Of a stretch of DNA of 64,000 nucleotides, positions 25,300 to 57,010 are shown piece after piece. The number at the start of each line of letters is the position of its first letter. Position 1 is the first letter of the stretch. Made by a program: the position numbers and the translations under genes. Origin of the DNA: Leishmania infantum JPCM5 (lineage: Eukaryota > Euglenozoa > Kinetoplastea > Trypanosomatida > Trypanosomatidae); the NCBI RefSeq assembly GCF_000002875.2, contig NC_009413.2, forward strand, positions 873,823-937,822, read 5' to 3'. The notes beneath the pieces are model-generated. The model worked only from the letters and a program-made list of their open reading frames with translations. It searched no databases and was not told the origin of the DNA.

Positions 25300-25895
25300 C
25301 CACCCTCTCTGCCATACAACATGAGTTGCACGCCACTCCACCCGCCCCCAGCCTGCCACAGACCCCACCGCGTGGTGCGAAGCAGCCGTGGACACACGCG
25401 CTAGAGAGTGCGCCGACTCCGTCATCGGAGCACGGCCCCCTGCGCCAGGCTCCACCCATCACCGCCGCTTAGCCGGTCGCCTCGCAGCCGCGCCACCCAT
25501 TGTGCTGGTCGCCACCCAGTGCATCTCCTCGCGGTCGCGCAGACTGTGCCTCCACCAGCAGGCAGTGCGGGGGCCGTGTGGGATACGTTCGAGTCACGCG
25601 GACACGTCGCCTATCGCGTGGATGGCAGAAGCGTGCGCACCGTCGCTGGCCTCTCCAGCGCAACAATGTCCACAGTCTGACCGCCGGCATGCGTGGCGGT
25701 ACATCGCTCTGACCCTCCCGCCCTCCGCCATGTCCGAGGTGCGTGAAGTTTTCACCACCTGAAGTGGCTCGGCGTTGGCAGGGATAGGGGGTGGGGGCTG
25801 CATAGCTTCCCCCACACAGAGCGTGGGGAGGGGGAGAGGGGTGCACTGCGCCCTGCGATGCCACGCGCGGAGAGGGGTGTCCGCCCCCGTCACCA
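25300..25895 (-). mobile_element. SIDER2-like retroposon, copy 1
   Basis: About 0.6 kb, nearly identical to the copies at 51674 and 56421. Shared sequence runs from CCACCCTCTCTGCCATACAA to GCGCGGAGAGGGGTGT; flanks differ. On the minus strand it ends in a short A-rich stretch (about 25275-25300 on the complement), fitting a 3' tail, so it lies in sense orientation with the genes. Size, location in an intergenic transcript region and copy number fit the Leishmania SIDER2 family. I assign it by these properties, not by comparison with a consensus. It falls in the presumed 3' UTR of the gene at 29206-31443, or in a spacer preceding the coiled-coil gene. Confidence 0.7.
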
Positions 25896-26689
25896 ATTAA
25901 GCCAGGAGCGAAACCAGAAAACAAGAGAGAGGCATATAAAGCTGACGCGATCCGCGCAACAGCGAACGCTGAAAAAGATCGTTTTCCCGTGGTCACCAGC
26001 CCGTACAAACAAAAAGGAAGACGCGCACAACAGGGAAAGACAACGCATACACCCATGCAACAGCTTGGAAACGCACGCGCGCACATCCAGGAAGGAGCGG
26101 TGGCTGTAGTGAAAGTGGTGGGAAATAAAACAGCAGAGCAGAGCTAAGGGCAGAACAGACCCTCCTCTCACCATCTTTTCCATCCCCAAAGAAGGCGAAG
26201 ACGCCACAGTCTGTGCGCAGGTGTGTAGCACACGCTAAACAACAACGTATGCGAACGGCAGGAAAGATAGTAAAACGGCGAGGCCACACAACGACGAAAC
26301 CGACGAGAGGGCGAGAGAGACGCACACATGGACAACCGTGAGCGCGCAAGCTAAAGGAAGAAGGGCACCAAAACAGAACACAAAGGACACGCGAAATGAG
26401 GAAGGGAAAAGTACAGCTAACAAAAAACCAGGCAAACACCGTACTGAAACCAATCTTTTTAAAGACAGAGACAGAGAAAGAGGGGGGGGGGTAGGAAAGA
26501 CACTCTCTGAGAAAAATGCACACGCACAAGCGCGAACAGACGAGTAGCGCGAGAGTAAGCCAGCCGGCGTGCAGAGAGAGAAAGAAAAGAAATGAAGAGA
26601 TGAAGCCAAAAGCAAAGCAGAACAACAACAGAAAAGAATGCAGCCAAACATATTGCCCTTTCTCGCGCGCCAGCACGTCCTTCTATCGC

Positions 26690-28560
26690 GAGCAGCTCAG
26701 CGAATACGCGCACGCAGCCGCAGCCCACCTGCCTCTGCTGCGCCACCCCTAAATCCTCGTCGTCCAGCACGAGCCGTCTGCCGTCGAGTCGGGTCATGCG
26801 CCCTGCATTCTCGTCCTTCCTCGCACACGTGCTGCGCCATCGACGCCACACGGAGACTCGCGTGGGCTGCATGCCTTGATCCACGCGGTCCGTGCCCGGG
26901 CTCCTGCTCGAGGGCGCGAGCGGTGGCGCCCGTCGTGCGGACAATAAGGGCGTGGTCGAGGCGCATGCCGGGAGAGTTCAAGGAGGGGGCGGGCCAGCCT
27001 CAGGTCATGGCCCTCTGAAACCCGGCACAACCTGCCTGTATGTCATGCTTTTCTCCCTCTCAGCTGCCTCAAGCCGCGGCACCCCATAGGATGGCGTGGC
27101 GACTCTCCACATGGGAGCCTGGAGGGCTCGATGGTGCCATTCGGGGGTGTTCTCGTCCTGCTTCCGGCATCCGTGCCTCATCAGCCGGCCCGGCCGGATG
27201 GAGGAGGTGCCGCCTGCTTGCGCACGCGTGCGCCTCGGCGTCGATCGGTATGGATCTCTTCGCGCCGCTTTCGCCCATCACTCCTGCTCGGCTGACCTCT
27301 GCATGCCGTGACTGGATGTGGCGCAGCACCCCAGCTGTGGCTGGCAGCGCATGCTGCAGCGTGCTCGCACTTTCCGACCTTGGGATTTGCTTCAGCACGA
27401 CGTTGCTGTCCGGGGAGGGGGTTCGCTGCACTCGCACTCCCTTTCCGTCGATGCCACAGGGAGGGGCCGTGGCTGGTTGTCCCGCCCGCACGCACCGCGA
27501 CAGGCCGGACGCTGCCGTGAGTGTGAGGCAGCAGGGGGCACTCCACCTTCTCCCGAGGCCGCGCGGCTTGCATAAGTGCGGGTGGGCCCAGCCGGAAGGG
27601 ACACGCTGATGGGTGTATGCCCGCGCACAAAAAAAACGCGTAGCTCGTTCTTCTGAAGGGGTGCACAGGGCAGCGACAAATACCCGACGGGGGAAGCCCG
27701 TGCAGCGCCGGCGAGATGAGTGCAATCACACTACTGCGTCCACGACCATGGCGTGCAACGCGGTGTGCTCTGAGCCTCGAGCGATCCACGAATATCGCGT
27801 AGCATGCGGGGCACAGCACCGGGGCGGACGCCCTCCTAGGAAAGCGCGGGCGGGAAATGGGACTTCGAAAATGCTAGCACAGCAGTAGGCAGAACGCCAT
27901 CTGCACCCCATGCTACCACTACCAGCCACCCGCCGCGGCAGGAATCCGAAGTGCGGACAGGTGCCGGCGCAGAACTGGGTGAGCACAGTCTCCTGTCGGC
28001 TGGTAAGCTCATCATCCCTGCACTTCTGGTGAGGGACGGCTGCTGCCAAGCAGCTCGTTTCCGTCGCGTGTCGCATCGTGTAGCAAGCTTTTGAAGAAAT
28101 GTCGTCCTTGCGCCTGAGTCCGGTGACGAGGTCGGCGATCCATGCAGCTGGCGTCGGCGCCTCTGGCATGGCTGGCTTTGCTGTCTTAACCACGTCGTTC
28201 TCGTGCTCCAGTTCACAGAAAACACGCACAAAGCGAAGTGGGAAGCGGAAGTGGCCGGCTCGAGACGCCACCGTTGGTGCCCAAGTATGTCGCCGCATGT
28301 CGTCCTCCTCTGTTGCAGGGCCCGTGCCGAGCGCCGTGGGAGGCGACAGCGAGTCTTTTGCCGCAGTCACAGTCGTTTCGATGTTGTGGCTCATGAAGTC
28401 GGCTTCGCAGGAATTCAAGTCCAAGACTATCACCATAGCGCATCGTGGGTTCTCGAAACTTGATGTCTGCGTGCACCGCACCATCCGCTCACAGCGAGTG
28501 AAAGAACTCCGCAAAACAGGCGGGCCACTGCCTGCTGACCCATATGAGAGCTTCTAAGCC
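26690..28560 (-). pseudogene. Degenerate ingi/L1Tc-related non-LTR retroposon (DIRE), 5'-truncated and frameshifted
   Basis: Minus-strand frames carry remnants in the correct order. About 28355-28163 resembles the C-terminal half of an ingi-type RNase H (ALGTGP, MRRHTWAP, RAGHFRF, then ELEHENDVVKTAKPAM, where the His/Asn/Asp pattern has decayed). About 28004-27897 matches the linker typical of these elements (TSRQETVLTQFCAGTCPHFG, ending CRW). An intact C2H2 finger lies at 27813-27748 (C-x2-C-x12-H-x4-H). A decayed finger lies at 27542-27477 (APCCLTLTAASGLSRCVRAG, with His replaced by Cys and Gln), and another at about 27362-27303 (ATAGVLRHIQSRH). These lie in different frames, so the element is broken. 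Endonuclease and reverse transcriptase domains are absent. The boundaries are approximate. Confidence 0.82.
27748..27813 (-). other. Intact C2H2 zinc-finger motif inside the DIRE
   Basis: The motif has exact C-x2-C-x12-H-x4-H spacing, beginning CPACYAIFVD and ending RVARH, typical of the C-terminal nucleic-acid-binding fingers of ingi/L1Tc elements. The surrounding frame is not a functional ORF. Confidence 0.8.
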
Positions 28561-28735
28561 GCTGGCCGATAGCACCATCACATCCCGCGTGTGCAACTCC
28601 CGCGCCAGCTATGCAGGATAGCCTCCCTGGCGTGAGTGAGGAGACACAGGCGGGTGCGGTGAAGCGGGCTGGTGAAGTATTGGACCGAGAAAGAGGAACC
28701 GGAAATTTAAAACTCAAAAACATCCCAACCCTCGA

Positions 28736-28800
28736 AACATATATAGTACATATATATATGTGTGTGTATACCGAGATATATAACCATAGGTATATATAGA
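28736..28800. repeat. TA/TG-rich low-complexity tract
   Basis: Repeated ATATAT and TGTGTG blocks read directly. The tract lies in the presumed 3' UTR just downstream of the gene at 29206-31443. Confidence 0.8.
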
Positions 28801-29205
28801 GAAAGGGGGAGAGGGATGTATGCAAGATATTGGAACACACGCGGCAAGCAGGTGAAGAAAAGAGGGAGACACACGCACACACTCTCACACGCACGCACAC
28901 AAAGCATTCAAGTTTCTGCAAGTAAAGGAGAGAGAGGTGAAAACCGTGACATTGACGAAGAAAAAGACGGAAATCAATGAAATAATAATATATAATAAAG
29001 AAAAAAAAACACAACAAGCATATCCGTGAGAGAAGCACCGGGAATACCAGTCAACCGGTTCTGTCTCCCAGGCTCTTTAGCCTCTCCGCCACCGACTAGT
29101 GTCTCACGACGAGAGCAATACTACACGTTTCGAGGTCTTCGTGCCGCAACGCCTGTCTTGATGTGCACACATCCGCGCACACAGGTGGTTTTTCGTTTTC
29201 CGACC

Positions 29206-31443
29206 TTAGGAGAAACTCTTCTGCCGCGAGAACATTTCAAAGAACAGCTTGTTGTCCTCCAGCGCTCTCTTGGCCAGTTGCTTGCGGTGCGGCACCCCGG
29301 CGTTGATAATCGTCCGCCGACCCGGTTCACAAGCAGATCCGTCACCAGTTGGACGCCGCGGGTCAAAGAGCGGTAAATGTGCTGAAGCAACCTTTGCAGG
29401 GACCAACCCAGTCGTGGCAGTCGCCGGCACGTCTACTTGCGTCGGCTCCAGCAGAGGTCGCCGCGGCAGCGAGGGGCGGATGGTGCTCTCGCCTTGCTTC
29501 CCCTTCGCGGGAACGAGAATACTGGCAGGACGGTGCGCAACGTGAATGGGGCAGAAAGATATGCTGTCGCTCGAGAAGGAATGCGAGGAGGTGGAGGTGA
29601 TGGTGCCGCCGCTGGAGCTGAGGGGTCCTTTGGAGTCGTTGAAACAATGTGTGCTGTCCTTGTCGACATCCGCGCCTAGCGTGGAGGTGCGTCGGGCCAA
29701 GGGGGTGATGGACGGCAGTGGTGGAGTGTCGGCAACCGACAGCGTGACTGCAGACGACGCTCCCACCTCGAGCAAGTGTTGCGAGTGTGGTGTGAGTACG
29801 TCCACGTCCGTGACAGGATAGTGCTCACGGCCGTGTGTGGCGCCAGCACCGTCGGCGGGCACAGCTGTGGCCTGGTAGCCGCAGAAGCACACTGGTGTGA
29901 TGGAAGTGCCTGTCCGAAAGTCCGATTCGCGCATCTCGAACGGCAGCCACTGGACACGCGTGGAAGCGCGATCACGCCGGCGCAGCAAAGTGCGGTGGCG
30001 CACGTAATTGGCAGAGCTGCCGACTGGCACATCTTCACACCGGTTTCCAGACAGCGGTGCCTTTTCCAAGACCGGTGGCGGCGATGCACCAGTCTCATCG
30101 CTACTCCCCGCCCCTACCTCACCGGGCCCGCCGCCGCCGCTGCTGCTGCTGCTCGTATTAGGCGGCACGGCTCCACAGCGAAACCACGTGCAGCCTGCCT
30201 GCCCAGCTGCACGCGCCTCGTGCATTTCTTGAATAAGGTTCACAAACTTCACCGCTTCGTCGTGCAGCTGCTTGCGCGCCAGCTCCTGCTCGGACAACGA
30301 AGACTCGACCGACTTCGGCAACGACTCGAGGGACGCCGTGGACGCACCTGGCAGGGCTTCACTGATGCCCTTTGAGGCATCCGAAAAAAGATTCTGCGTA
30401 CTTGAGGCGCTATTGCCGCCACTGTTTCTTGAGGATAATAGAGCTGAGACTTCTCGAGCCGCACCCAGCTCATGGTGCCCGCGGTGCAGCTCCAGAAGTC
30501 GAACGCCCAGGCGCTGTATTTCCGTGGAGGTGACTGCATCGTTGACGGCAAAAGCACGTGAGTCGAAGCTGATGTCAAGCAAGGCACTGGACACGATGTG
30601 CGCCGCGGCTGCGGCAGCCGTCATTGAGGACGATGCCGCGAAGGATCCTGCAGCCGCCTGCGCAGGATCGCTTTCTGGCGTCCTGCCATGGCTTTTGCTC
30701 GCTGTACCGCCGCTTTGTTTGCGGAAGTTCTGTGGCACGAAGTAGCTCCTCGCGGACATCGATATGTCCGGCAGCGTCGTGGGCGGGGTGACGGTGTTCG
30801 GCAAAAGGCTTGTTGCCATGAGAGACGCGCTCGAAATGGCGCTGGGGCACAGCGCGGTATTGTTGGATGCTTTCATGCGCGCTGCTGGCGCTGCCGCTGC
30901 GGTTGCTACCGCTTGCAGAGGCGTCGCGCGCTCCAAGAGCGGTGGTGGCGGGAGCGGCAACTCGCGCATCGAGCTATCGGCGGAGTAGAGGGAAAAGGCG
31001 CTACACGAGCTATTCACGGACATCTCCATCTCCGGCATCGAGGACACGGAATGCGGCATCGCCGTTGCTGTGGCTTCCACCATCCCGATCGACGGCACGT
31101 GGGACGGGGCTCGCGTCGACTGCGGATTCGCTATGGACGAAGAGGATGAGGGAAACAATGGTCGAACGAAACCGCGCGGCGCAGAGTGCGGATAACTACT
31201 GACAGAGTTCTTGCACGTCGTGGCGTCCGAGCTCGACACTATGCTATGAGCCCGCGCCGCTGCCCCTACATTCTTCAACGCCGGCGGCCCTGGCACAACG
31301 GGCGCATCCGGAGGCGCGGCAGAGTCGAGCCGCGAGACGTCCCTGGAGGTGCCATCTGGCTCTTGAGCAAAGGACTGAGGAGCTACGGGCTGAGCACGGT
31401 GGTTGCTCGCATGAGGCTGGAGCATGCACAGTGCGCCTCCCAT
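29206..31443 (-). CDS. Ser/Pro-rich protein with candidate N-myristoylation signal, 745 aa
   Basis: The first ATG in the frame (31443) gives MGGALCMLQPHASNHRAQ; only a GTG precedes it. Gly2 with small residues and Cys6 resembles an N-myristoylation plus palmitoylation signal. The rest is very rich in Ser, Ala, Pro and Thr and mostly disordered. More ordered pieces include a helical segment near 370-440 (SEQELARKQLHDEAVKFVNL), a possible Cys/Trp patch (AGCTWFRCGAVPP), and a conserved-looking segment (RRRDRASTRVQWLPFEMRES, then FRTGTSITPVCFCGYQATAV). The C-terminus (GVPHRKQLAKRALEDNKLFF) is helical and basic. I do not recognise the family. Confidence 0.82.
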   Translation of the reverse strand: MGGALCMLQPHASNHRAQPVAPQSFAQEPDGTSRDVSRLDSAAPPDAPVVPGPPALKNVGAAARAHSIVSSSDATTCKNSVSSYPHSAPRGFVRPLFPSSSSSIANPQSTRAPSHVPSIGMVEATATAMPHSVSSMPEMEMSVNSSCSAFSLYSADSSMRELPLPPPPLLERATPLQAVATAAAAPAARMKASNNTALCPSAISSASLMATSLLPNTVTPPTTLPDISMSARSYFVPQNFRKQSGGTASKSHGRTPESDPAQAAAGSFAASSSMTAAAAAAHIVSSALLDISFDSRAFAVNDAVTSTEIQRLGVRLLELHRGHHELGAAREVSALLSSRNSGGNSASSTQNLFSDASKGISEALPGASTASLESLPKSVESSLSEQELARKQLHDEAVKFVNLIQEMHEARAAGQAGCTWFRCGAVPPNTSSSSSGGGGPGEVGAGSSDETGASPPPVLEKAPLSGNRCEDVPVGSSANYVRHRTLLRRRDRASTRVQWLPFEMRESDFRTGTSITPVCFCGYQATAVPADGAGATHGREHYPVTDVDVLTPHSQHLLEVGASSAVTLSVADTPPLPSITPLARRTSTLGADVDKDSTHCFNDSKGPLSSSGGTITSTSSHSFSSDSISFCPIHVAHRPASILVPAKGKQGESTIRPSLPRRPLLEPTQVDVPATATTGLVPAKVASAHLPLFDPRRPTGDGSACEPGRRTIINAGVPHRKQLAKRALEDNKLFFEMFSRQKSFS

Positions 31444-31625
31444 TCGCACGTGCCGAAGACGGCCAGCTTTCAGTGATCGCGAATATGCCTCTCGAAATGC
31501 TGTCGGTGCCTGTGGGTGCACTTCTCAGTCAAGACAGCGTCCAGATGGCTCCGAGCAAAGGGGATTGGTCCGCGAGCAGGTGAGTTTAGCTACGGAGTAT
31601 GCGCAAGAGACGACACTGAGGGACG

Positions 31626-31708
31626 CTGAATTGCGACACCGCCACACACACACCCGATGCGGCAATACAAACAACGTGAAGGAAGCGAGAATGCAGAGAG
31701 AGAAACGG
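31626..31708 (-). promoter_or_regulatory. Possible trans-splice signal for the MGGALC gene
   Basis: A pyrimidine tract on the minus strand (about 31682-31708) is followed by the first AG at 31627-31626, giving a leader of about 180 nt. It is weaker than the other cases. Confidence 0.28.
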
Positions 31709-32117
31709 ATTCCGACACGCATCAGGAGATGGGGCGTAAGGTGAAAGGTAGCTGACGGTCGGCCAAAATGGGCCCGAGTCTCCACAGTCACACTGAAGGC
31801 AGAGAGAGAGAAGCAAACAAATAAAGATCGACGGGGCAGAGAAATCTACACACACATGAAGCAAACAAAAAGAAATGTGTGTGGAAAGAGTGGATAAAAA
31901 TGGGGTTTGGAGGGGAGGGGGAGGGGGGATGCCTGAACACAGGCCTCTGCGTTTACAAGGGCGACAGAATCGTGTGAAGAAACGGAAAGTAATAAAGCAA
32001 AAAAAAAGGAAAGACGCTGCTTAGACAGGACCAAAAAAAAAGAGCGAGGTGGTGGTGGATGGGGCTGAGTGGGAGATGCGAGCGCGGAGAAGAGGGGGTA
32101 TACAACGCGCAAGCATG

Positions 32118-32141
32118 CACACACACACACACACACACACA
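32118..32141. repeat. CA microsatellite
   Basis: About 12 CA units read directly on the plus strand. Confidence 0.9.
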
Positions 32142-33299
32142 GACGTACACAGACACGCGCGCTAGAGAGTCTTTAGAGGCGCACGGCTCAAGAGCGCGAC
32201 ACAAGGAAAAGGAAAAATACGATTACCCCATAAAAAAAGACAGTAGCGTATGCCGCGCGAGCCCCCGGAGGAGGTCGCAGCAAAGGAGGAACACCAGATA
32301 GAAGTGGTAGAGAGTGCAAGACGACGAAGAGAGAAAAGATGAAAAATAAACAAATGAGAGGCGCCAGACGGTTTAAAAAAGCGAAAAGAAGGGGAAAGGG
32401 AAGGGAAGGGCGAACACAGGATGGAGAGATGGGAGCGGCGTCGTACGAGACAACAAAAAAAAAACGAAAAGAGAAATACAGTGAGAGAGGGACAAGAATC
32501 GGATACTATATCAACGTTTATGGTAAGGCGTAGAGACGGAGGGAGGGGGTGGGAGAGGTGGGCGGAATTGCGTTGAGGGGTCAAGTACAAGGACGAGAAA
32601 CAATACAGATGGATTTGGCGGAGATCGGTGTAAAAAAAAGAAAACGAACAGACAAAAGGGGACAGAGAGAGCGCGCGCACACACACAAGCACACACCAGA
32701 TGATCGCAGCACAGAAGGCCGACGCACCGAGAGAGATAGCAAGAGACGTAGAGGATCACTGAGGAGGTGAAGGAGAGGAGGCAAAGACACAGATACAGCG
32801 GTTGAGAGTTCGTTGTTGTACTCTGCCTCTCTTCATTCCCGTCTCGATTTATCGTATCTCGGCAGATGTCGCTGCTCTTCTTGCCTGCGTGTCGCTTCTG
32901 TTTCTTTTTTTTTCTCGTTCGTTTGCTCGGTTGCTTCGTTATGTTTTCTCCCACGGTCAGCCGTACGGGTTCGAGACGTGTGTGCTGTTAGATTTCTCTG
33001 CTGCTGCCCGTATTTCGCCCTTCCTGGCCGCTACCGGCGTTTTGTCTTGATGGGGAGGGAGTAGATAGCGTAATGACACGTACAGACAGAAGCAAACAGC
33101 AATCACATACGCACACACACGCTTACACTTTACACACACCGAAAAAGAAAAACCAAAAAGAAACGAAACTGCGCGGCACAAGCGAAGGGGAAAAACCAAT
33201 GGCACACGCTGTAGTGTTCCTGTTTGTACGGAAGCTGTGAGTGCTCGGACGCGTTGGAAGTCGTAGTCGTCGTAAGAATGACTAAGCCGGCGAGAGAGA

Positions 33300-33312
33300 G
33301 GGGGGGGGGGGG
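33300..33312. repeat. Poly-G run (13 nt)
   Basis: Thirteen consecutive G residues on the plus strand, C in the transcript, preceded by GAGAGAGA. It is the longest G-run in the window. Confidence 0.9.
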
Positions 33313-34076
33313 CAAACAAAAGACCCCCACACACGCGTACAAAGAAAAAACGAAAACGACAAAGACGAACAAAATAATATATCCAAATATTAAAATATGA
33401 AAAACGCAAAAAAACGGCAAAGCAAAACACGAGAAATTCACGTCAAGCACAAACCGAACAGAGGAAAAAAGCAAGCAAGCAACGAACAGCGGCGGGAAAA
33501 AAAGGAGAGGGGAGGTGGCGCTGATGTTGATGCTGCTGAAACAAAGACCATAAGAGAGACAGAAGGGGGGGAGAAGAAAAGGCGAATAGAAGCACAAAAC
33601 ACACAATAACAAAAAGAAAAAAGTCCCAGAGAGAAAAAAAAGAGGAACAAACACGCACGCACCGGCAAACAAAGTAACTTTTAAACTAAAGCCGGGGCCG
33701 ACACCGAACAAAACAAGTAAGAGCTCGACACACGCGCAGAAGCAGAACAGAAAAGTCTAGTCGCTCACCAACAAAGTCTTTTCTCCGTTTCTCTGCCTCT
33801 TGAACACAGAGGAGTACGACAGGCAAAACACACACACACACACACAATCACTACGTTTTACAGGCAGGCACACCAAGAGCACACGAGGGGGTGCTCGCGG
33901 CAAGGTGGATGCGGGGAGCGGGAGGGGACGCAGACGAATCAGTGGGAAGGTAGCTTTAAAGAGAAAGACTAAACAGGACACGCAAACATACAAGTGAGCC
34001 CAAGACACAGATAGATACGCCTCTCATAGCAACGCCACTTTGTCTTCTCGCTTATCTGCGCAGAGTTGCCACAGTG

Positions 34077-34159
34077 GGGGGGGGGGGTAGGCAGAGGTGG
34101 CGAGAGGTTAGGCCAGGGAAGCGGCGGACAGGGGAAAGGAGGGAGAGGCGGGGGGGGGG
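34077..34159. repeat. Clustered G-runs (11 and 10 nt), G-quadruplex-capable on the plus strand
   Basis: G11 at 34077-34087 and G10 at 34150-34159, with intervening GG/GGG tracts, read directly. This could form a quadruplex on the non-transcript strand; structure not tested. Confidence 0.7.
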
Positions 34160-34749
34160 AGGAAAGAGGACCAAAGTAGTGTACACGCTGGGGTGCGTGA
34201 AACAACGTAAAGGAAGAGCACGAAACTCAAAAAAAAAAAACAAGGCACCAGCAACGCCAACAGCAACACAAACGAGAGAGAGAGAGCGCAAGCGACAAAA
34301 CAGAAAAAGCAAATGGCAGTTAACACACGTATGATGAGGGAGGGTTGAGGGGCAGGGGTGGAAGAGAGGGAGGCAAAGGATGAAGCGGGTTGCTAACAAA
34401 ATCAGACACCCGTCCGCACCCCGCGCGCGCAAAACCCAGACACAGACGCACCTACGGGGCAAGGAAAAAAGGGGGTCAAAAAAAGGTTACAGAGCAAAAC
34501 GAATGCTTCTACGTATCTCTTCTTTTTTTGTTCGTGGCTGTGTATGCTGTCCTCTCTTTTTTTTATTTCTTGGTTGCTCGCAGGTGTGCGGCCAATGGTT
34601 TCACCTACATATAGGTAGATGGAATGCTTGGCTTTAGATGCGGGGCAAAAAGGTCCAACAACGAACGAGAATAGAGACTTAGGGAGCCGTGATATTATTG
34701 CGACTCGCAGGTGTGCGGGCGCGCATGCGCACGCAACGACGAGAAGCAA

Positions 34750-34762
34750 ATATATATATATA
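34750..34762. repeat. TA microsatellite
   Basis: A short alternating AT tract within the presumed importin 3' UTR. Confidence 0.85.
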
Positions 34763-35810
34763 CACCCCTTTTTTAGTGTTCTGACGGAATGGAGAGTTAC
34801 AGGGGACAGAGACGACCCCCTTGTTTGCGTGTGTGTGTGGACGATTTGTGAACGGCGTGTGTAAATTCACGTGCGTGTACGGGGAGTGGAGGGCCGGCAA
34901 TCGTGGAGGCGAGTAGAGTGTGTATCCACGCAGACGAGAAATGGCCAACTGCAATGTAGCCGCGCGATCACACGGAAAAGGGGGGACAACATCCATTGAC
35001 AAACATACGCATGTGTAGGACAGAGAATAGGGATAAGAGAAATCAGGAAGACTACAGCCGACGCTGTGAAAAAGAGTTGCGGGCGGCGCAACGGTGTGCG
35101 CAAGCGCGCTCACGGTCGGACAGCAATAATGAGCGAACGCTCGAAAGCACGAGAAGGACGCAGAAGAAGGAGCGGTAGTGGGCAACGCACGCATGCACGC
35201 ATGCACACACGCAGACCACTGTCACCTTGTGACCATCACCACTTCTTCCCCGCACTGCGTCCATCCGGCGTCGTCTTCAACCTCAACACACCGCCCACTG
35301 CACCACGACACACTGAAAGCACAGGCATGTTGGTGGTGGGGGGGGAGGCACGCATGGCACTGAAAGAGGCACTTCAGACGGTGGCGACAAGAGCATGTGC
35401 CTTCCCTTTGTTTTTTTTTCGTTTCGCTTTACAGCTTGCAAGACAGGCGATCGGGGCCCTGACGACGCAATCCACTTGACGTTTCCGCACTCCGACAGCT
35501 ATTTCGAGTGGAGGAGAGTGGGTGGGGTGCATGTGTTCATCACACAAGCAAAACAAACGACGGTGTGTCTGCGGAGGAGATAGCTTGTTTCCGAAAAGCG
35601 GTTATCGGCCTTGTGTTTACGCACCGTGTGCACAAGTACATATGCAGACTCAGACACATCGGAGAAGGTTTCACGGAGGGCGGAGAGCAGCGGGCACCAC
35701 GCGGATGCGTTCACGTCTTCTTACCTCCTCTTCTTCCTTATTATTCGATGTTAACAGATTCGCCGTCACCCTGCCGGTGCCACTCGTCACTGCGCTTCCC
35801 CCTCCATGGA

Positions 35811-43595: not shown

Positions 43596-43628
43596 CAGAG
43601 TACTCAGGAGCGCGCGGAATGCACGTCT

Positions 43629-44210: not shown

Positions 44211-44273
44211 GCGTGTATGTCCGTATGTGTATGTGTATGTGTATGTATATAATGTATGTGTATGTGTATGTGT
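44211..44273. repeat. GTATGT tandem microsatellite
   Basis: About ten imperfect GTATGT units with one ATAA interruption, read directly. Confidence 0.9.
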
Positions 44274-48600: not shown

Positions 48601-50482
48601 GCTGCATATCGGATATCGTCTCCTGGCTCGGCTCATACGACGGCAGGGAGTAGCACACCGCCGGCAGCACCCGACTGACAGCCTCAAAGGTGTCGGCCCT
48701 CAGAAGCCTGCACTGGTCGCGAATGAACGTATCACTATCCGTGTACGTGGCGGCCCCGCTGACAGGCAAGTTCGCAGCCGCAAAGACGGAGGTCGGGCTC
48801 GGCGGGGGAACCGAGAACTCTTCCGCTGTGGGGATGAGGGCAACCCCAGACGAGCCGCTGCCAGGAACAGCAGCGCCGGTGGTGGTATCCACAGTTCGAG
48901 ACAATGCCGCTGGCCGCAGCTGCTGTGCAAGCCGTGCCTGGACAAGCTGCAGGCGTCGCACGGCTGCTCCGCTCGCTCGCGTCAGCCGCTCGGCAAAGAA
49001 GGCTTGGAGCTGCCGCACCACCGCCGCTTCAGGATCGGCGGCGGTGTCCAAGTCACTCACGGCAGCCTCGCCAGCGCTGTCTTTCGCAGTGCTGCCCGCG
49101 TCGGAAAGCGGGTTGTAGCAGCGCACCAGAATCACGAACTGCGCCACTTCCACCCATCTGTCCTCAGCCAACCGGGCCTCGGCTGCCGTCGCAACAGCCG
49201 CAGATGCACCGAACTTATCTGTGGCGGTGTGCCGTTCTAGCGCATCCCGTACCATGTCGGGGTAGAAACGAGGCAGCCGTAGAGGCGGAGTCACAGCAGT
49301 CGCAGTCGCCGCCGTGGATGTAGCAGGAGTGACGGTGGTAGCGCCGCCTCCTGGTGCAGCCGCCGCGGCTGCTGCTGGCGTACTCGGTGGCGCAGTGCAC
49401 AGTAGCGCCAAGAAGGCGCTGAGAACCGGCACGTGAATCGGCTCGCGGTTACCGACAAAGGTGGTCAGCTCGACCAGCGCGTGCACCGCCTCGACGTATA
49501 GCGGTACGTCTTGCTCGCGTAGCACGTGCAGCCAGCGCAGCAGCACAAACCACTCGTGTGTGTGCATGAGGAGGGTAGCCATAACCTTAATGGGATGGCG
49601 GGCGGCACGGCAGCGGTGGAGAAACTTTCGGACGTCCTCCAGCGTAATTACCGGTCGCTCGTGGCGCACGTCGACGGCGATGGGGTAGTCCCGGCTGGGG
49701 TCCAGCTTGAAGGTGACGTTGTCACCAACGACGACCGCCTTGACGCCGACGTCGACGCGGTCAACAAAGAACTTCAGCTCGCCCATGCCAGCCACGGTGA
49801 CGAAGCCGATATTGTTCGCCTCGTCGAGACGGCACACTGTCCCGCGACGGCGCTCGTCTGCTGTGAAGAGGTTCGTCGCGGCAGCTGTGGAAGCACGAGC
49901 GGCAACCGCACCGCTTCTGTAGGCCGCCGTAGGCTCAGCCCGCGGCTTTTGCTTTTCTTCAAGGATGCGGCGCAGCTCCACACGCTGCAGGTGTTCCAGG
50001 TATTTCTTCAGCACCGACGACTGCGGTGCATCCTTTGACGACGCGGCAGGCGACGCTGCCGGACCTGCGCCCTTAGTAGCAGTAAGGGTCGCTGGGCCCT
50101 CGGGCGCCACGGCTGACGCGGAACGCAGACGCTCCGAGCAGTGCAGACGGGTGTGGCCGCTTTCACCACAGAAGCGGCACCACCGTTCCGACCGGAGGGA
50201 GAGCAGGTGCTGTGCATGCCACCGCGTCAGCCAAGCCACCTTCTCCTCGACAGACCCGAAAAGAAAAGTGTCTTTCACGGCGTAGCGCTCTGATTGCTTG
50301 TCCGCCGGCTCATAGTGCTGGCGCAGTCGTGGATGAGCGGCCAACAACTGAAGGAACGTGAAGCCGTTGCACAAGACCTCTTCCGGGTTCGCCCAATCCA
50401 CGCATGCGTTCTTCTCCTCCGTCCACTCCGACAGCAGCGGCATCTGCACGTTGGAGGGGTGGGGGAGGGGTAGGGCTCCCAT
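45635..50482 (-). CDS. Large SF1 RNA/DNA helicase, ZNFX1/UPF1-like, with CCHC zinc knuckle, 1615 aa
   Basis: A CCHC zinc knuckle (C-x2-C-x4-H-x4-C, in WCRFCGESGHTRLHC) lies at about 102-116. A beta-rich segment near 215-270 (GFVTVAGMGELKFFVDRVDV) looks like a cold-shock/OB fold. The helicase core runs from about 840 to 1500: Walker A GPPGTGKS (about 855-862), MVVITYKNHALDEFL, Walker B-like VLVVEEAAEVLES (about 1250-1262), GDHYQLQP, TEQRRMHPDIS, STVDLYQGDENDVIILSLVR (about 1445-1465) and VSCSRAR. The EEAAE form of motif II and 'KNHALDEFL' are characteristic of ZNFX1/NFX1-type helicases. An Ala/Pro/Thr-rich linker lies near 370-400, and the tail is Gly/Asp-rich. ZNFX1 relatives act in small-RNA pathways and antiviral sensing; the role here is inference. 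The first ATG is at 50482. Confidence 0.9.
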   Translation of the reverse strand: MGALPLPHPSNVQMPLLSEWTEEKNACVDWANPEEVLCNGFTFLQLLAAHPRLRQHYEPADKQSERYAVKDTFLFGSVEEKVAWLTRWHAQHLLSLRSERWCRFCGESGHTRLHCSERLRSASAVAPEGPATLTATKGAGPAASPAASSKDAPQSSVLKKYLEHLQRVELRRILEEKQKPRAEPTAAYRSGAVAARASTAAATNLFTADERRRGTVCRLDEANNIGFVTVAGMGELKFFVDRVDVGVKAVVVGDNVTFKLDPSRDYPIAVDVRHERPVITLEDVRKFLHRCRAARHPIKVMATLLMHTHEWFVLLRWLHVLREQDVPLYVEAVHALVELTTFVGNREPIHVPVLSAFLALLCTAPPSTPAAAAAAAPGGGATTVTPATSTAATATAVTPPLRLPRFYPDMVRDALERHTATDKFGASAAVATAAEARLAEDRWVEVAQFVILVRCYNPLSDAGSTAKDSAGEAAVSDLDTAADPEAAVVRQLQAFFAERLTRASGAAVRRLQLVQARLAQQLRPAALSRTVDTTTGAAVPGSGSSGVALIPTAEEFSVPPPSPTSVFAAANLPVSGAATYTDSDTFIRDQCRLLRADTFEAVSRVLPAVCYSLPSYEPSQETISDMQHARVYSRVRCLGKVMTSDRDYSHPESYLLEVHPHSPKANLRAQLHEGTTVCISTALDPTTIRNNELFWGVVSSCDAALMDVGVIAVSPCEGSSSFELMRAALDRNAAGGRLDRSFLLETPIFMAGYESIMRALEAFCGPLAMPLPLVRQLVSPEAAASVTAAAALDIMASHSAGAAAPSDDVDQLVEYIPPHCAVTFQELTEEIRSQFALDEGQKAVMRQLPVSKMILVQGPPGTGKSFIGCRVVEAYVRYKQLVASGDILQKVSIDMLRSTRLEDLLPQVGPMVVITYKNHALDEFLLDLLDCGLWEMNRPRVGQQLTAGMSAAAAGISLSSSASTFPGGKRVVRIGGRSREARLDGYNLGALLHGSMDRAAINSLKDRLFVLSQRLERLTKEIHYLENGRVPRVYFERWLTAEQRRHITFDDREAWLAGEKYIGTLDEAEDVVSPAHYQSLLQTRMAELLGARRTQASSPHADSTATAGPATGAAELETGEEEDVSLSVFQEMRREEERRQFNNQLHQTYLSAEALLLASQPPSRPAGVPEELLSLWSLTPRLRHEYYAYLIANTIAAKARDCLTIMETMKSVIRVRRHAMDELKLSLLQGADVVGLTTTGCAMNQNLLRSLRPSVLVVEEAAEVLESQLLACMTDSLKQIILIGDHYQLQPKVETFQYEKINHLNLSLFERLAQKMQPIRLTEQRRMHPDISRLIRPFYSPQPLIDHVSVLARPFPAASGVAGADRVPGLATRVFFWSHRYPEEEAPGSRSKVNTREICMVQQAVAHLVSQGVLQKSITVVTPYLGQCRMLRGVLRLRSLADVRVSTVDLYQGDENDVIILSLVRTEKLTDFIRTRNRLIVSCSRARFAMVMIGNDELLRQCHHWEQVLDQLQAEQCIGESLPITYRGQPSKVVHMTVAESVSAAALEAELTAQQQHQQRKTYQRRPPAAADTAEGVEGARPDEAGGGTNVNDNGGAGDRPDGDAGPDSGAEEDA

Positions 50483-51673
50483 TACCACGAAGCAAAGCGA
50501 AGACGACTACAACGGTAGCGTCCGTTCCTGGTGGATGAGCAGGTCGCGTTGTGTGTTCACAAGCGGGCGAAGAGACAGGGAAGCGCAGACACACAGGCAA
50601 ATACTCCGTCCTTCACTCCTCCGACTCATGCAGCTTGGCCTCCCTCTATCTCTCACGCCGTGCCTCTCCGATAGCGCGCCTTCGTACAAGGGCGCACTTG
50701 AAGACGGGAGCGAACCCGGACTCTGGAGAGGCCTGCCGAAGCGTTTGGTAGTGCGTGCTTGTGCCTATGGGCGCTCGTTGTGTTTTACCCGAGGCTACTT
50801 AGAAGGCATCAAACAACAACAAGGAAAGACGGAGAGAAGAGCAACGTGCTGAGCTTCAATCGATACATGCCGACGCACAACACAAAACACCAACACACAC
50901 GCAGACAGCAAGAGGAAGACGCACACACATGTGCACCGAGAAAAGGATCTCGAGAAGCTCGCGAAGCGCTGAAGAAGTAAACACTCTATTAGCGGCGCGT
51001 AGTGTGTGAGAGGGGGGAGGGAGGGCGGCTACACCGTGCGCGCGCGAGCCAGCGCCGGCGTGTGAATGCAGAAAAAGAAAGGGCAGAGAAGCAGTGAAGA
51101 TTGGTTGGGGGAGGGCCCAGTGAGGAGAAGGGGAAGCAGTTTTGCGGTGGGGTTGGTCAGCGCTTAATGTCATCGCCTAGGTCGGCAGGCGCGTCCGACA
51201 GGGATGCCACATGCACGTTGACGCTCCCTCGCTGGAACACACAAGCGGGAGCGCGCGAAAGCTCGAGCAGATATGTGCTTTTCGTCACAGGCACGTCGAA
51301 GGTCGAAAGAGGGAGAGTTGTTGAATTTTCCGAGTCCGCCGCTTTCCTCTTGCTTTGTGTCCGTTGGAGTGCCCTACCCCACGTTCTTTGGTTCGCTTCT
51401 TCGACTTCCATGAGAACCATGCCTCACGTTATCGAGACGAGACAGAGGACAGAAACGGCTGTCTGTGTGTCACGTGAGAGGCGGTCTGTGAATTTTGCAC
51501 TATGCACGCCGCCACGATGAAGCCGCGTTTTCCCGGCAACCACATTTGCAGGCAATACCATGGCAAAATCCTCCATCAAACTCATCGTTAAAAACACAAG
51601 CGCACACCACACGAATGCGCGCCTCGTCCGAGATGTCCAAATGCAGTGCGCGTCTTTTCCGTCAAGGTGTCTT

Positions 51674-52278
51674 CCACCCTCTCTGCCATACAACATGAGT
51701 TGCACGCCACTCCACCCGCCCCCGGCCTGCCACAGACCCCACCGCGTGGTGCGAAGCAGCCGTGGACACACGCGCTAGAGAGTGCGCCGACTCCGTCATC
51801 GGAGCACGGCCCCCTGCGCCAGGCTCCACCCATCACCGCCGCTTAGCCGGTCGCCTCGCAGCCGCGCCACCCATTGTGCTGGTCGCCACCCAGTGCATCT
51901 CCTCGCGGTCGCGCAGGCTGTGCCTCCACCAGCAGGCAGTGCGAGGGCCGTGTGGGATACGTTCGAGTCACGCGGATACGCCGCCTATCACGTGGATGGC
52001 AGAAGCGTGCGCACCGTCGCTGGCCTCTCCAGCGCAACAATGTCCACAGTCTGACCGCCGGCATGCGTGGCGGTACATCGCTCTGACCCTCCCGCCCTCC
52101 GCCATGTCCGAGGTGCGTGAAGTTTTCACCACCTGAAGTGGCTCGGCGTTGGCAGGGATAGGGGGTGGGGGCTGCATAGCTTCCCCCACACAGAGCGTGG
52201 GGAGGGGGAGGGGTGTACTGCGCCCTGCGATGCCACGCGCGAAGAGGGGTGTGTATGCGTGTGTGTCCCGGTCACCAG
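51674..52278 (-). mobile_element. SIDER2-like retroposon, copy 2
   Basis: About 0.6 kb, differing from copy 1 at roughly nine positions including a 2-nt gap, and from copy 3 at roughly seven, counted by eye. It has the same orientation as the genes. It lies in the presumed 3' UTR of the DUF4139 gene, about 1.4 kb past its stop. An open antisense frame is shared by all copies but has no ATG start. The right border after GAAGAGGGGTGT is less certain. Confidence 0.72.
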
Positions 52279-52429
52279 GGAGTTCTGAAAGGCAAGCCCC
52301 ATCTGAAGACAACTGGAAACGACGATAAAGACGCGAGCAAACATAACTTCACGATAGGCACAGAGAAAGTGACGGAGTTGAAGAGGGAGGCCGGCCTCCT
52401 TCGATCAGACACGGAGACACAAACACCCA

Positions 52430-52485
52430 CATATATATATATGTACACATACATACACGTGCACACACATCTATATATATATATG
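52430..52485. repeat. Two TA tracts flanking a CA-rich spacer
   Basis: ATATATATATATA (52430-52442) and TATATATATATAT (about 52471-52485), read directly. Confidence 0.85.
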
Positions 52486-52706
52486 TTAGAGCACAGATGA
52501 AGAGCAGGATGAAATAGAAAAAGCACAAAGGGATGTCAAGGAAGAGAAGCATAAAAAAAAGAATGAAAGGTGATTCTCTCCAACGGAGCCGCGGGCAACG
52601 GTGGGATGAGGGAGAGTGAGGTGGTGTGCGTGAGAGAGAGAGAGCGGGTATCGGTGAAGGGGAGCAAAGACAGGTGCAGTCAAGCGTTCCCACAGGCGTA
52701 CACAGG

Positions 52707-52734
52707 GACACACACACACACACACGCACACACG
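52707..52734. repeat. CA microsatellite
   Basis: About 14 CA units with one CG interruption, read directly. Confidence 0.9.
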
Positions 52735-53695
52735 AATCACGTGCTCTTTGGCATCCCTCTTCTATGCCCGCTGGTAGAGTTATGTGAACGTGCCAGTGTA
52801 TGTGTGTGTGTGCGTCTGTGGCGTGCATATTGTTCTCATTCCCCGCCCCTGCGAAAATCTTCTCTCTCCTTTTCCTTTTTTTTGATTGTTGCTCTTGCGC
52901 GTGAGTGGTGGTGTACACACGACACAGTCGCCCCACAAAGAGAAAAGTCAAACGACTGCGCTGGACTAAGATGGACGGGTGAAGGAGAAGAAAAAGGGAA
53001 AAGAAAACGACGAGAGGGACGCACATGTGCACGTGGGGGCGATTCATGCGCCCAACAAGATGATATGTGTGCATGTATGTGTGTGTTTGGATGGAGAGAG
53101 ATGCCGATACGGACGGAAGGCGGGGCATGAAGCGTCCTCCCCGCCCTCTAGCGCAGGCGTCCGTACACATGCACACACGTGAGAGACAAGAGACACAAGA
53201 GATGGGAGGAACGAACGCAAAAAAAAAACCAAAGACAGCGAACGGAGCTCCTGCCAACCCGCCGCTGCGACTCTTACGTGTCGCAGCAAGAGGAGAAACG
53301 TTTGTACGCAAGAAGTGGGCAGGAAGAGCGAAACACCAGCCTGCATCCGCCTCAGGTCGGTGGGAAGATGGGGTGTGCATTGCTCGGTATCAACACCAGA
53401 AGAGCAAAGGAAACAGAGAACACGGCGCCGGCAACGTAGTTGCATCCCCTGCACATGCTCGAGTGTGCGTGTGCGCGTGCTATGTTCTCCCCGGCTACTA
53501 CGAGGAGTTCAAGCGAGTTACACTACAGAAAGTCATCTCACTATGCTGACTAGCGGCGTGGCAGAGGCCAGAAGGACCTTGGTCGCCGCGGCGGTTTGCT
53601 TTGATTTTCACAGCCTATCTTTCTCCGCCGTATGCCAGGCCACCGCGCATGTGCTTACAGGCACGTAAGCACTAAACTGCTAGAGAGGCCCTGAC

Positions 53696-55618
53696 TCACA
53701 GCCCGTATATGGTGGCGTTGCTCGGTGCCTCCACTTCGAACGCGAAAACCAGCTCAACGCTCTCGCCAGCACGCACCCTGCGCTCAATCTCCACAATACC
53801 TTCGTTGTTGAGCAGGCGTAACTTGCGCCGCTCCTGTTCCACCCTGTCCTCCTCATCGTCGTAAATGTAGACGTCTTCGTGCGGCTTTGCTGGCGAAACG
53901 AGCCGCACCTGCAGTAGCTCCTCACTGCTGATGGGAATGTGCTCCACAAGCTTGATGCGCAAGGCACCGTCTACGGAGCCGGTGGCACGTTTCTTGTTAC
54001 GAATCGTAATCCTGTACGCGTACGTCTTCACTTGGTTCTTCTTTCCCTTCAAGTACGAGCTCTGCACCTTGTTTGCTTGACGCAGCAGCACTCGCTTTAT
54101 CTCCACGCTTGGGTCAGCACCAAAATACATGTCCAACTTACTCCCTGATGCGCACTGCTTGTCGATACGCGACCGCAAAACGTAGTTCCCATCCAGGAAC
54201 ACGGCTACCTCACCGGGCAGTAACAAGAAGTCGCTCGTGTTCGTGATCTTGGCGTGTGTGAAGGCGGCCAGCGACTTTTCGGGCACGCTCATGTAGCTGA
54301 TCGCCGCAGGCATCCGGAGCTCGGCCAAGGGAAGACGCGTCGTCTTGCCGTTCGCCATCACGGTTTGCGGGTTGGGTATGGCAAAGTTCATGATGGCCCC
54401 GGTACCGGCCTGCTCCACCTGCGCCATGGCACGCTTTATCATCGGCGCTGCGCAACGGGCAGGCGCCCTCTCCGCCAAGGCAAAGCAGATCCCGTCGTCC
54501 GCGCAGTCGGCCATGGCGGCGTTTGGGCTCATCATGAACTGGGGCGTCGGCGGCGACGGCTGCACGACGCCGCAGCGCCAGATGGTCATGGCTGGCGGTA
54601 ACGCAGCATTCCGTCTCGGAACCGCGGAGGATAGCGTCAATGACACATCTTTCAAGTCATCACCGTAGTTCAGAACGACTTCAGCGTTGTAGTACAGCAC
54701 CACTTCGTTCGTCACTGTGTTCAGGTGCACCTCGTACACGGCGTTCCACCGGCCGCTCGGAACCATGTACGACACGTATACCACCGCCTCGGGTCCGGCT
54801 GGAACGGGCTTCAGAACTTTGAGCGTCAGCACCACCACGTCCACTGTCGTCCCCGCTTCATCGCTGCGGCCACTGCGAGGGCTTTGCCCGCCGTTGACTA
54901 CGCACAGCTTCATCTCAAGCTCCGACTTCTCAGCCTCGAGCGCCTCCTTGGCGCGCAGCAGCTCCCGCTTCGCCTTCGCGTGCTCTCTCGTTGCGTTCTC
55001 CAACGCGTCGAGGTGCGCGCCCCACATCTCCGGGTCATGCAGCGCAGCAGTGCACATCAGCGGCGCGGCCTTGCACGGCTCCACCGCACTCGTTACACAA
55101 TCCACAGTGTAATCGCGCACAGCGGCAGCCTCGGCTTGCGCAATCTCGTTGAGTTGAAGCTTCTGCTTCACCGTACGGAGCTGCGACTCCAGCTTGCGAC
55201 GCGCGTTCGCCGATGATGTGTCACCTGCCCCTTCTCCGTCCGCGTCTGAGTCGCTGGCGCTCGCCACCTCTGCAACCCGCGTCGCCTCCACTGCCACCGT
55301 CCCGTCGCTGCGCAGGCAGCGGCGTTCCACCTCATCCACCAGCACGCCGGCGAGGATGACTTTGCCGTCAAACGAGGCACCGAACTCCACCTGCACCGAG
55401 TCGCCATCGAACCCGCACTGCCCGTCGAATTTCTTTGGCATCGGCACCATTACCTGCACCTCGTTCACCGGTGTGCTGAACGACAGAGGCGCGCACCGGC
55501 GCTGCAGCGACTTGTTCTGGTATATGGTCGCCCGATCCACGCGCGGCGCCACGTGCAGCGTCAGCGGCAATGCACTGGCGCCGGCAGGCGGGGACGTTGC
55601 GGGGGCGGCAGCCTGCAT
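53696..55618 (-). CDS. DUF4140/DUF4139-type (mucoidy-inhibitor A-like) coiled-coil protein, 640 aa
   Basis: The start is the first ATG, MQAAAPATSPPAGASA at 55618; the frame extends 35 codons further but only from a GTG. The N-terminus shows a DUF4140-like beta domain (DRATIYQNKSLQRRCAPLSF and VQVMVPMPKKFDG). A charged coiled coil follows (about 130-270, for example RKLESQLRTVKQKLQLNEIA and REHAKAKRELLRAKEALEAE). Then comes the DUF4139 core (about 290-640) with the characteristic 'W-x-x-x-Y' segment GRWNAVYEVHLNTVTNEVVL, YYNAEVVLNYGDDLKDVSLT and LSSAVPRR. It ends in beta-rich sequence (VEIERRVRAGESVELVFAFE). These proteins are widespread in bacteria and scattered eukaryotes; their biochemical role is not established. 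No signal peptide or membrane segment is visible, so a soluble protein is likely. Confidence 0.85.
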   Translation of the reverse strand: MQAAAPATSPPAGASALPLTLHVAPRVDRATIYQNKSLQRRCAPLSFSTPVNEVQVMVPMPKKFDGQCGFDGDSVQVEFGASFDGKVILAGVLVDEVERRCLRSDGTVAVEATRVAEVASASDSDADGEGAGDTSSANARRKLESQLRTVKQKLQLNEIAQAEAAAVRDYTVDCVTSAVEPCKAAPLMCTAALHDPEMWGAHLDALENATREHAKAKRELLRAKEALEAEKSELEMKLCVVNGGQSPRSGRSDEAGTTVDVVVLTLKVLKPVPAGPEAVVYVSYMVPSGRWNAVYEVHLNTVTNEVVLYYNAEVVLNYGDDLKDVSLTLSSAVPRRNAALPPAMTIWRCGVVQPSPPTPQFMMSPNAAMADCADDGICFALAERAPARCAAPMIKRAMAQVEQAGTGAIMNFAIPNPQTVMANGKTTRLPLAELRMPAAISYMSVPEKSLAAFTHAKITNTSDFLLLPGEVAVFLDGNYVLRSRIDKQCASGSKLDMYFGADPSVEIKRVLLRQANKVQSSYLKGKKNQVKTYAYRITIRNKKRATGSVDGALRIKLVEHIPISSEELLQVRLVSPAKPHEDVYIYDDEEDRVEQERRKLRLLNNEGIVEIERRVRAGESVELVFAFEVEAPSNATIYGL

Positions 55619-55714
55619 GGCGCACAGTTTTGGGAGTTGCTGAAGTTTCACACGGATGGAGAAGAGAGAAGCGGAATCGGGATCAGCCAGATAAGAAGGA
55701 TCACCTGCTGCAGC

Positions 55715-55778
55715 CTCAGCCACAAGTTGGCGCGGACGACCAGCGACGGGAAAAACAAAAGATGGAGGAACGAAGGAA
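55715..55778 (-). promoter_or_regulatory. Candidate trans-splice signal for the DUF4139 gene
   Basis: A pyrimidine tract on the minus strand (about 55748-55778) is followed by the first AG at 55716-55715. This lies downstream of the GTG at 55723 and so excludes it, supporting the ATG at 55618 (leader about 96 nt). Confidence 0.5.
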
Positions 55779-56420
55779 TACCGGAGTAAGACTTTCCTTT
55801 TCTAAAGGAAGAAATCGTGAATGCCAGGGATCCCGAGCGCGCACGGCAGGCTGTGGGCACCCCAACACCACCAGGCAACACAGAGGTGATCGAGCGCCCA
55901 GCCAAACGCGCACGCACTCACCGTGGTATGGCGCGTAAGGCGGCGCTTGCGCGTTTGCGAGGCGATCTAAACAGGTCAACGCGACAGACAATGCTTTTCA
56001 AAGGCTCGGGTGGGCCCGCAGCGAAGGCGATCACAGCGAGAGCCAGAGTGGAAAGGATTCAAGGGACCAACAAAGGCAGAAAAAAGACAACGCATACGTG
56101 CCAAAGGATCTGGCGCGTGTGCCTGTGTCTGATAATGAGGAAGGTGTCGTACAGCCAGAGAACCTCTCGGAGGCGGGGGGGGGGCAAACGACCAAGCTGT
56201 CCAGGCGCACACACGCGTTCGTATAAATGTGTACGCGTTTGCATTGTTCGCCGTGTGATCGTGGCGGCGTCGAGTTCGGAGATCCAAAACCGATCGCCGC
56301 GGTTGTATGAAGCACACACACACACAAAGGAAAAGGATACGGGGGAGAACGAGTGAGAAAGTCGTAGTGGCTTGGCAAGCACTCGAGAGACTACATCGGC
56401 AGAGTATTTCTTTGATGGAT

Positions 56421-57010
56421 CCACACTCTCTGCCATACAACATGAGTTGCACGCCACTCCACCCGCCCCCGGCCTGCCACAGACCCCACCGCGTGGTGCG
56501 AAGCAGCCGTGGACACACGCGCTAGAGAGTGCGCCGACTCCGTCATCGGAGCACGGCCCCCTGCGCCAGGCTCCACCCATCACCGCCGCTTAGCCGGTCG
56601 CCTCGCAGCCGCGCCACCCATTGTGCTGGTCGCCACCCAGTGCATCTCCTCGCGGTCGCGCAGGCTGTGCCTCCACCAGCAGGCAGTGCGAGGGCCGTGT
56701 GGGATACGTTCGAGTCACGCGCACACGTCACCTATCACGTGGATGGCAGAAGCGTGCGCACCGTCGCTGGCCTCTCCAGCGCAACAATGTCCACAGTCTG
56801 ACCGCCGGCATGCGTGGCGGTACATCGCTCTGACCCTCCCGCCCTCCGCCATGTCCGAGGTGCGTGAAGTTTTCACCACCTGAAGTGGCTCGGCGTTGGC
56901 AGGGATAGGGGGTGGGGGCTGCATAGCTTCCCCCACACAGAGCGTGGGGAGGGGGAGGGGTGTACTGCACCCTGCGATGCCACGCGCGGAGAGGGGTGTC
57001 CACCTCCCCG
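56421..57010 (-). mobile_element. SIDER2-like retroposon, copy 3
   Basis: About 0.6 kb, about 98-99% identical to copy 2 by eye, in sense orientation. It lies in the presumed 3' UTR of UGGT, about 550 nt past the stop. On the minus strand the end at about 56420 is followed by a short A-rich stretch, as in copy 1. Confidence 0.72.

Follow-up and report, generated by a model that had tools for sequence, protein, structure and literature searches.

Three near-identical SIDER2 elements in a 64-kb region of Leishmania infantum: probable old relics kept alike by gene conversion among neighbours

SIDERs form the biggest repeat family among trypanosomatids (PMC11520807) and are described in the literature as extinct. 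Proximity clusters of SIDER2 are already in print (PMC2424063, PMC11520807). Requena et al. 2008 defined subfamilies of at least 85% identity with 'chromosomal proximity', and the proximity found for L. major SIDER2 by Smith et al. 2009 agrees. Ferreira et al. 2024 (PMC11520807) reported 311 clusters at 85% identity or above, 88.4% of which lie on one chromosome; gene duplication was judged not to account for them, and the Discussion of that paper suggests ancient copy-and-paste insertion. For L. infantum, 1448 SIDER2 elements have been published. Here we analyse three SIDER2 copies within 64,000 nucleotides (nt) of Leishmania infantum JPCM5 (contig NC_009413.2, hereafter C29, positions 873823-937822; this whole stretch is called the window), taken from a genome of 32.07 Mb in 75 contigs. 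We conclude, with a probability of about 0.78, that they are old, separately inserted SIDER2 relics kept alike by ectopic gene conversion among neighbours.

Two other systems are close to this one. Repeat alignment groups and repeat-mediated amplicons (PMC4028189) likewise involve low-copy direct and inverted SIDER2 elements of the same chromosome that serve as substrates of homologous recombination; that work concerns amplification, and 'gene conversion' is absent from its main text. Leishmania tandem arrays that evolve in concert, such as beta-tubulin (PMC1533823; PMC4413820), resemble SIDER2 in that undifferentiated paralogues group by species, whereas SIDER2 copies are non-coding and dispersed, with tens of kb between them and either orientation represented. 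Neither 'gene conversion' nor 'concerted' has a match in the main text of PMC11520807, and in PMC6597758 SIDER2 and gene conversion are each mentioned a single time, not in connection with each other. In the open-access papers searched, we found no proposal of conversion between SIDER elements and, among those listed, no paper combining SIDER2 with homogenization.

All three copies lie on the minus strand. The first (e899) occupies window positions 25300..25895 (C29:899122-899717), about 3.3 kb 3' of the stop codon of the gene for the MGGALC protein; it has an A-rich 3' end, and the ATG of the next gene lies 499 nt further on. The second (e925; 51674..52252, C29:925496-926074) lies about 1.4 kb 3' of the stop of a DUF4139 protein gene, and the third (e930; 56421..57012, C29:930243-930834) about 550 nt 3' of the stop of a UDP-glucose:glycoprotein glucosyltransferase (UGGT) gene. 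Pairwise local alignments agreed in 571 of 581 columns (98.3%), 576 of 589 (97.8%) and 572 of 579 (98.8%). With e899 as query, the other two copies gave E-values of 2e-292 and 9e-292; their likeness is therefore not due to chance. All three are invariant over two stretches: one, on the 5' side, spans 220 bases and the other, in the 3' half, 192. No further SIDER2 copy was found in the window at E 1e-3 (blastn), and no Rfam family reached its gathering score there. The initial annotation of this stretch had thus rightly placed three copies of about 98% identity. It had also set the low-coordinate (element 3') ends to within a few bases, but not the 5' end of e925, which is alignable only to about 52252, so that the last 26 bases (52253-52278) fall outside the near-identical core.

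By sequence, size and G+C, the three copies are SIDER2. They measure 579-596 bp with 67.6-68.3% G+C, close to the 550 bp and 66% G+C, both approximate, that characterize SIDER2. For reference, we retrieved 20 stretches of chromosome 32 (C32), in each of which a SIDER2 match coincided in place and strand with the entry in Table 1 of Requena et al. 2008; this agreement in strand sets the sense of the element. When cut at the Table 1 coordinates, 11 of these 20 elements had the same G+C to the decimal, and all were within 1.7 points. All 20 were matched by e899, with best pieces of 64.5-75% identity over 146-575 columns and E-values from 5.7e-31 down to 5.8e-12 for the weakest, which bears out the earlier description of the copies as SIDER2-like. 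The earlier assignment of sense orientation was also correct: the minus strand carries all the longest non-overlapping open reading frames (ORFs) of at least 250 amino acids in the window. In size, in G+C, in their match to the C32 elements and in their place on the sense strand downstream of genes, the copies are like SIDER2 elsewhere in Leishmania, with no essential difference. At 85% identity or above, neighbouring and on one chromosome, they form a proximity cluster as published, and no unrelated SIDER2 lies between them, in line with the rule of Requena 2008. Both the elements and their proximity cluster are of the ordinary kind, and nothing sets the locus itself apart. Close identity had been taken as unusual for SIDER2; this is wrong at the local scale, where near-identity of neighbours is normal, as the 311 published clusters illustrate.

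The flanks of e899, e925 and e930 are unrelated to one another, and segmental duplication was therefore rejected as the origin of the three copies. Unrelated flanks, together with the A-rich 3' end of e899 and the variable 5' ends of the elements, speak for another origin, the one suggested in the Discussion of PMC11520807: copy-and-paste retroposition landing near its source would have made the clusters, and the copies would be sisters. Against it stand the description of SIDERs as extinct and an inspection by eye, the only way in which target-site duplications were sought, that showed none at e899. The A-rich 3' end is clear in e899 only, of the three window copies; for chromosome 32 SIDER2, published data show A-runs in about 28% of elements, with clear duplications absent. 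The cores of e899, e925, e930 and a fourth copy, e947, agree at 97-99%; judged by eye, the outermost 20-30 nt differ at both ends, these outer ends looking like the same kind of end. Such a combination of differing outer ends and agreeing cores is not as expected of fresh insertions.

How far this likeness extends was assayed by a genome search with e899, in which 40 of 624 candidates were scored. Five places at C29 899-971 kb reached 98-100% identity (e899 itself included, and one over 410 nt only), two further places reached 89-90%, and seven at C29 1012-1060 kb reached 72-78%. Likeness of at least 97% over at least 410 nt was found in both orientations and at C29 899-971 kb only; off C29, nothing exceeded 73% among the matches listed. 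Whether the genome holds hundreds of equally similar copies thus has a split answer: among the 40 scored, only four besides e899 were at 97% or above over at least 410 nt, and these fell inside some 72 kb, but clusters of this type are numerous elsewhere. Further SIDER2 clusters on C23 and C14 appeared in the same search. Control searches with C32 queries behaved similarly. For a two-member subfamily (40 of 705 candidates scored), the query and one copy reached 99% and the next match at most 74%. For an eight-member subfamily (40 of 497 scored), eight places reached 91-100%, all at C32 18-128 kb, and the next matches were at most 76% and mostly short among those listed.

Over 243 kb of C29, 15 of the 20 SIDER2 elements fell into three blocks, with 99-100%, 97-99% and 90-100% identity within blocks and 69-81% between them. 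The remaining five were the mosaics e953 and e990, described below, and the unpartnered e987, e994 and e1018. Identity dropped with distance (rho -0.46 over 187 of 190 pairs; a value this low arose in 1 of 5000 permutations). Twenty-five pairs reached at least 95% over at least 100 nt, 15 of them inverted and 10 direct, at spacings of 2.7-71.7 kb. Moreover, block III straddles a divergent strand switch (C29:1037766-1041267), and its copy e1050 is antisense. With inverted pairs and a block spanning the strand switch, likeness follows chromosomal distance and not orientation or transcription unit. Like the published subfamilies and clusters, the C29 blocks group copies of at least 85% identity in one chromosomal region; they differ from these in containing strangers (e987, e994 and e1018). 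Two block members, e947 (C29:947100-947670) and e970 (C29:970880-971289), lie antisense to the polycistron; e970 is without the 3' part of the element, and e947 deviates only in its last bases. Inside block III, e1018 (C29:1018031-1018513) shares 67-70% identity with every other element, and its G+C, 61.1%, is the lowest among the 20. It breaks the rule of Requena 2008 that no unrelated SIDER2 intervenes, and seems to have escaped homogenisation.

The same arrangement bears on selection, by which a common regulatory sequence would hold the cores alike. Signature II of SIDER2 is functional in reporter tests (PMC5509151), and the 220 invariant bases on the 5' side of the window copies would be in keeping with this. 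Yet invariance is not in one place, since the 192 bases in the 3' half are invariant too; near-identity also ends at block borders and includes the antisense e947 and e970 as well as copies across the strand switch. We regard selection as a very improbable cause of the likeness.

Two elements of C29 are mosaics. The first, e990 (C29:990938-991515), sits between blocks II and III. In its 5' part (390-409 aligned nt), identity is 96-98% with block II and 74-80% with block III. In the 3' part it is 95.6% with e1023 (182 nt), 91.6% with e1012 (190 nt) and 84-96% with block III overall, against 74-77% with the four full-length block II copies. In a one-breakpoint test, none of 5000 shuffles equalled this pattern, and the pairwise homoplasy index (PHI) gave 0/2000 for ten block II and III sequences with e990, a set that excluded e953, e970, e1053 and e1057. 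The second mosaic, e953, displayed four 30-column windows at 0.93-1.00 identity, then two at 0.63 and 0.67, then five at 1.00. Its longest identical run was 169 (0/5000 shuffles), and its one-breakpoint test gave 13/5000. Mosaic tracts with sharp borders, the pattern by which gene conversion is recognised, are thus present in both e990 and e953. These mosaics and the chimera at the block border point to exchange, where PMC11520807 suggests ancient insertions; retroposition leaves both the chimeric e990 and the diverged patch in e953 unexplained.

Chimeras might also be made in the assembly, if swapped reads of near-identical repeats had homogenised or chimerised the copies in this sequence only. 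The 75 contigs and 32.07 Mb suggest an older assembly, in which repeats of 400-600 bp would be about as long as one read. However, the junction sequence of e990 is also found in the truncated antisense e970 (identity is 100% for 16 nt beyond the junction), so the same error would need to have occurred at two sites. In addition, the copies retain private differences and separate ends, and proximity clusters are reported for L. braziliensis, for L. major and for a recent L. infantum assembly. An artefact of this kind appears quite unlikely.

The age of the insertions can be approached on chromosome 32, where L. major identities are published in Table 1 of Requena 2008. We compared 36 of the 45 subfamily members, from 12 of 13 subfamilies; nine members (four of F, one each of H, J and L, and two of M, leaving subfamily M absent) and all nine orphans were outside the retrieved set. 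All 54 rows of Table 1 name an L. major counterpart, of which at least one (1141454r) is not collinear; for the 36 elements compared, all counterparts are collinear and on the same strand. For 33 of the 36, strict global alignment put the best L. infantum paralogue above the identity published for the L. major orthologue, and for 29 it put even the worst paralogue above it. The medians were 95.9 for the best paralogue and 85.0 for the orthologue. Since paralogues are closer than orthologues at sites occupied before the species split, the copies were rewritten after it. This is difficult to reconcile with retroposition near the source, as the collinear elements predate the split and yet resemble their paralogues more in 33 of 36 cases. 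We therefore consider that origin unlikely. The C32 result would extend, we infer, to C29.

Base composition is also consistent with exchange. Taking all 54 and 48 rows of the published tables for chromosome 32 (Requena 2008, Tables 1 and 3), G+C in L. infantum was 62.7 for unpartnered elements (n=9) and 67.3 for subfamily members (n=45). The corresponding values were 61.6 and 67.0 in L. major (with the L. infantum subfamilies as grouping), and 58.5 (n=8) and 67.4 (n=40) in L. braziliensis. With one value per subfamily, the contrast gave p 7e-4, 1e-4 and 1e-3 in L. infantum, L. major and L. braziliensis, respectively, and G+C rose with subfamily size in all three species (rho 0.73-0.85). Lower G+C in elements without partners fits GC-biased conversion and supports it without being proof; slow A+T-ward decay of old isolated copies is a confounder for which the same sign is expected.

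Several observations weigh against gene conversion among neighbours. By PHI, incompatible sites were not clustered in C32 subfamily A (683/2000), C29 block III gave no signal (807/2000, 7 sites), and block II with e990 offered only 3 informative sites. Smith et al. 2009 report no proximity of SIDER1 beyond gene duplications; general conversion should also affect SIDER1, unless divergence among its copies is too high. With 75 contigs, the assembly is probably of older date, and repeats of 400-600 bp can be misjoined in such assemblies. On chromosome 32, three of the 36 elements (794401, 827594 and 1219109) did not exceed the orthologue identity in strict alignment, in which unmatched ends cost score; without end gaps all 36 exceeded the orthologue identity, one by 0.3 points only. 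The L. major identities in this comparison are the printed ones, on the identity method of that table, whichever it was. Furthermore, the C32 members had been pre-selected in print for paralogue identity of at least 85%, which alone does not create the paralogue excess.

Altogether, conversion among neighbours accounts best for these results. The three retroposons would have inserted separately and long ago; homologous recombination between repeats at most about 70-80 kb apart, in either orientation, would then rewrite their cores into near-identity. That the exchange is gene conversion rather than another kind, that it is ongoing and that it is biased to G+C are each things we infer from the patterns above. 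Of the two explanations offered in the initial annotation, local gene conversion is supported by the mosaics, by the border chimera and by C32 paralogue identities above the published orthologue identities. Recent spread finds no support, given ends that differ by eye while cores agree and the 36 C32 elements with collinear, same-strand counterparts in L. major.

SIDERs inside 3' untranslated regions (3' UTRs) are exclusively sense (Smith et al. 2009). SIDER2 is characterized by two 79-nt signatures in tandem at its 5' end, and is reported to destabilise mRNA through cleavage in signature II, which is functional in reporter tests (PMC5509151). It is also reported to go with low expression, and about 14% of clusters appear co-regulated (PMC11520807). 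We examined whether the window copies could lie within mRNAs. The distance from stop codon to element is about 550 nt for UGGT and e930, about 1420 nt for DUF4139 and e925, and about 3310 nt for MGGALC and e899. Candidate trans-splice acceptors, identified by pattern matching only as a pyrimidine tract followed by AG, were found on the minus strand beyond each element: about 640 nt past e930 for the DUF4139 gene (tract 55748..55778, AG 55715), about 1090 nt past e925 for a helicase-like gene (tract 50561..50583, AG 50528), and about 280 nt past e899 for a 1287-amino-acid gene (tract 25003..25022, AG 24996). If used, the first two would leave enough sequence past the element for a poly(A) site. 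Nearer tracts also occur past the elements, at 56169-56184 (about 240 nt, e930), 51434-51455 (about 220 nt, e925) and 25179-25194 (about 110 nt, e899), and further tracts are present between each element and its gene. The predicted mRNA ends are thus likely to be beyond the elements only if the tracts closest to the next ATG are used. For e899, with only about 280 nt to its candidate acceptor, the mRNA may end near or inside the element. Membership of a 3' UTR is therefore likely for e930 and e925 and uncertain for e899, which is also the farthest from its stop codon.

Within mRNAs, the three copies would present nearly the same signal, because the 220- and 192-base stretches are invariant. 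They would probably act like published SIDER2s, as mRNA-destabilising parts of 3' UTRs, and with agreeing cores the genes carrying them might carry the same regulatory sequence. From sequence, mRNA control common to the three genes is plausible, and weakest for the MGGALC gene.

The three genes, correctly named in the initial annotation, are all on the minus strand. UGGT, upstream of e930, is encoded at 57562..62925 (Pfam Glyco_transf_24, UDP-g_GGTase and Thioredoxin_12/13/14), the DUF4139 protein, upstream of e925, at 53696..55618 (PF13598), and the MGGALC protein (745 amino acids), upstream of e899, at 29206..31443; the latter matched no Pfam family at E <= 0.001. Two further minus-strand ORFs were considered. 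The 343-amino-acid ORF between the DUF4139 gene and e925 (52349..53380) scored -0.216 per codon: no gene in the training set scored that low (minimum 0.073), and the value lies at the top edge of the range for wrong frames (-0.54 to -0.22). It was rejected on codon usage despite this edge position, and is probably not a gene. In the same intergenic stretch, upstream of e925, a 40-nt pyrimidine tract with an immediate AG (52968-53007, minus strand) is the longest acceptor-like tract and could mark an unannotated transcript. The 252-amino-acid ORF between the MGGALC gene and e899 (27726-28484) had a borderline codon score of 0.079 and a single protein match (81% over 58% of the ORF) among the matches listed, of 1359 candidates; we lean towards considering it non-coding.

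The clusters themselves are known, and the new part is the mechanism: the sequences fit local conversion better than the ancient insertion suggested in PMC11520807. More generally, SIDER2 may evolve in concert within domains of about 10-110 kb, through ectopic GC-biased conversion between direct and inverted copies that leaves chimeras at domain borders; we advance this wider proposal tentatively, at a little under even odds. SIDER2 is regarded both as an mRNA regulator and as a recombination substrate. If the proposal is true, the proximity of similar retroposons would be a record of the reach of recombination, and the high G+C of SIDER2 would partly be a by-product of conversion. Should neighbours owe their likeness to local conversion instead of old insertion, sequence similarity would be unusable for dating insertions, and the size of homogenised blocks would measure the distance over which repeats meet inside the nucleus. 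Finally, in that case a change arising in one 3' UTR could spread to the genes of its neighbours.

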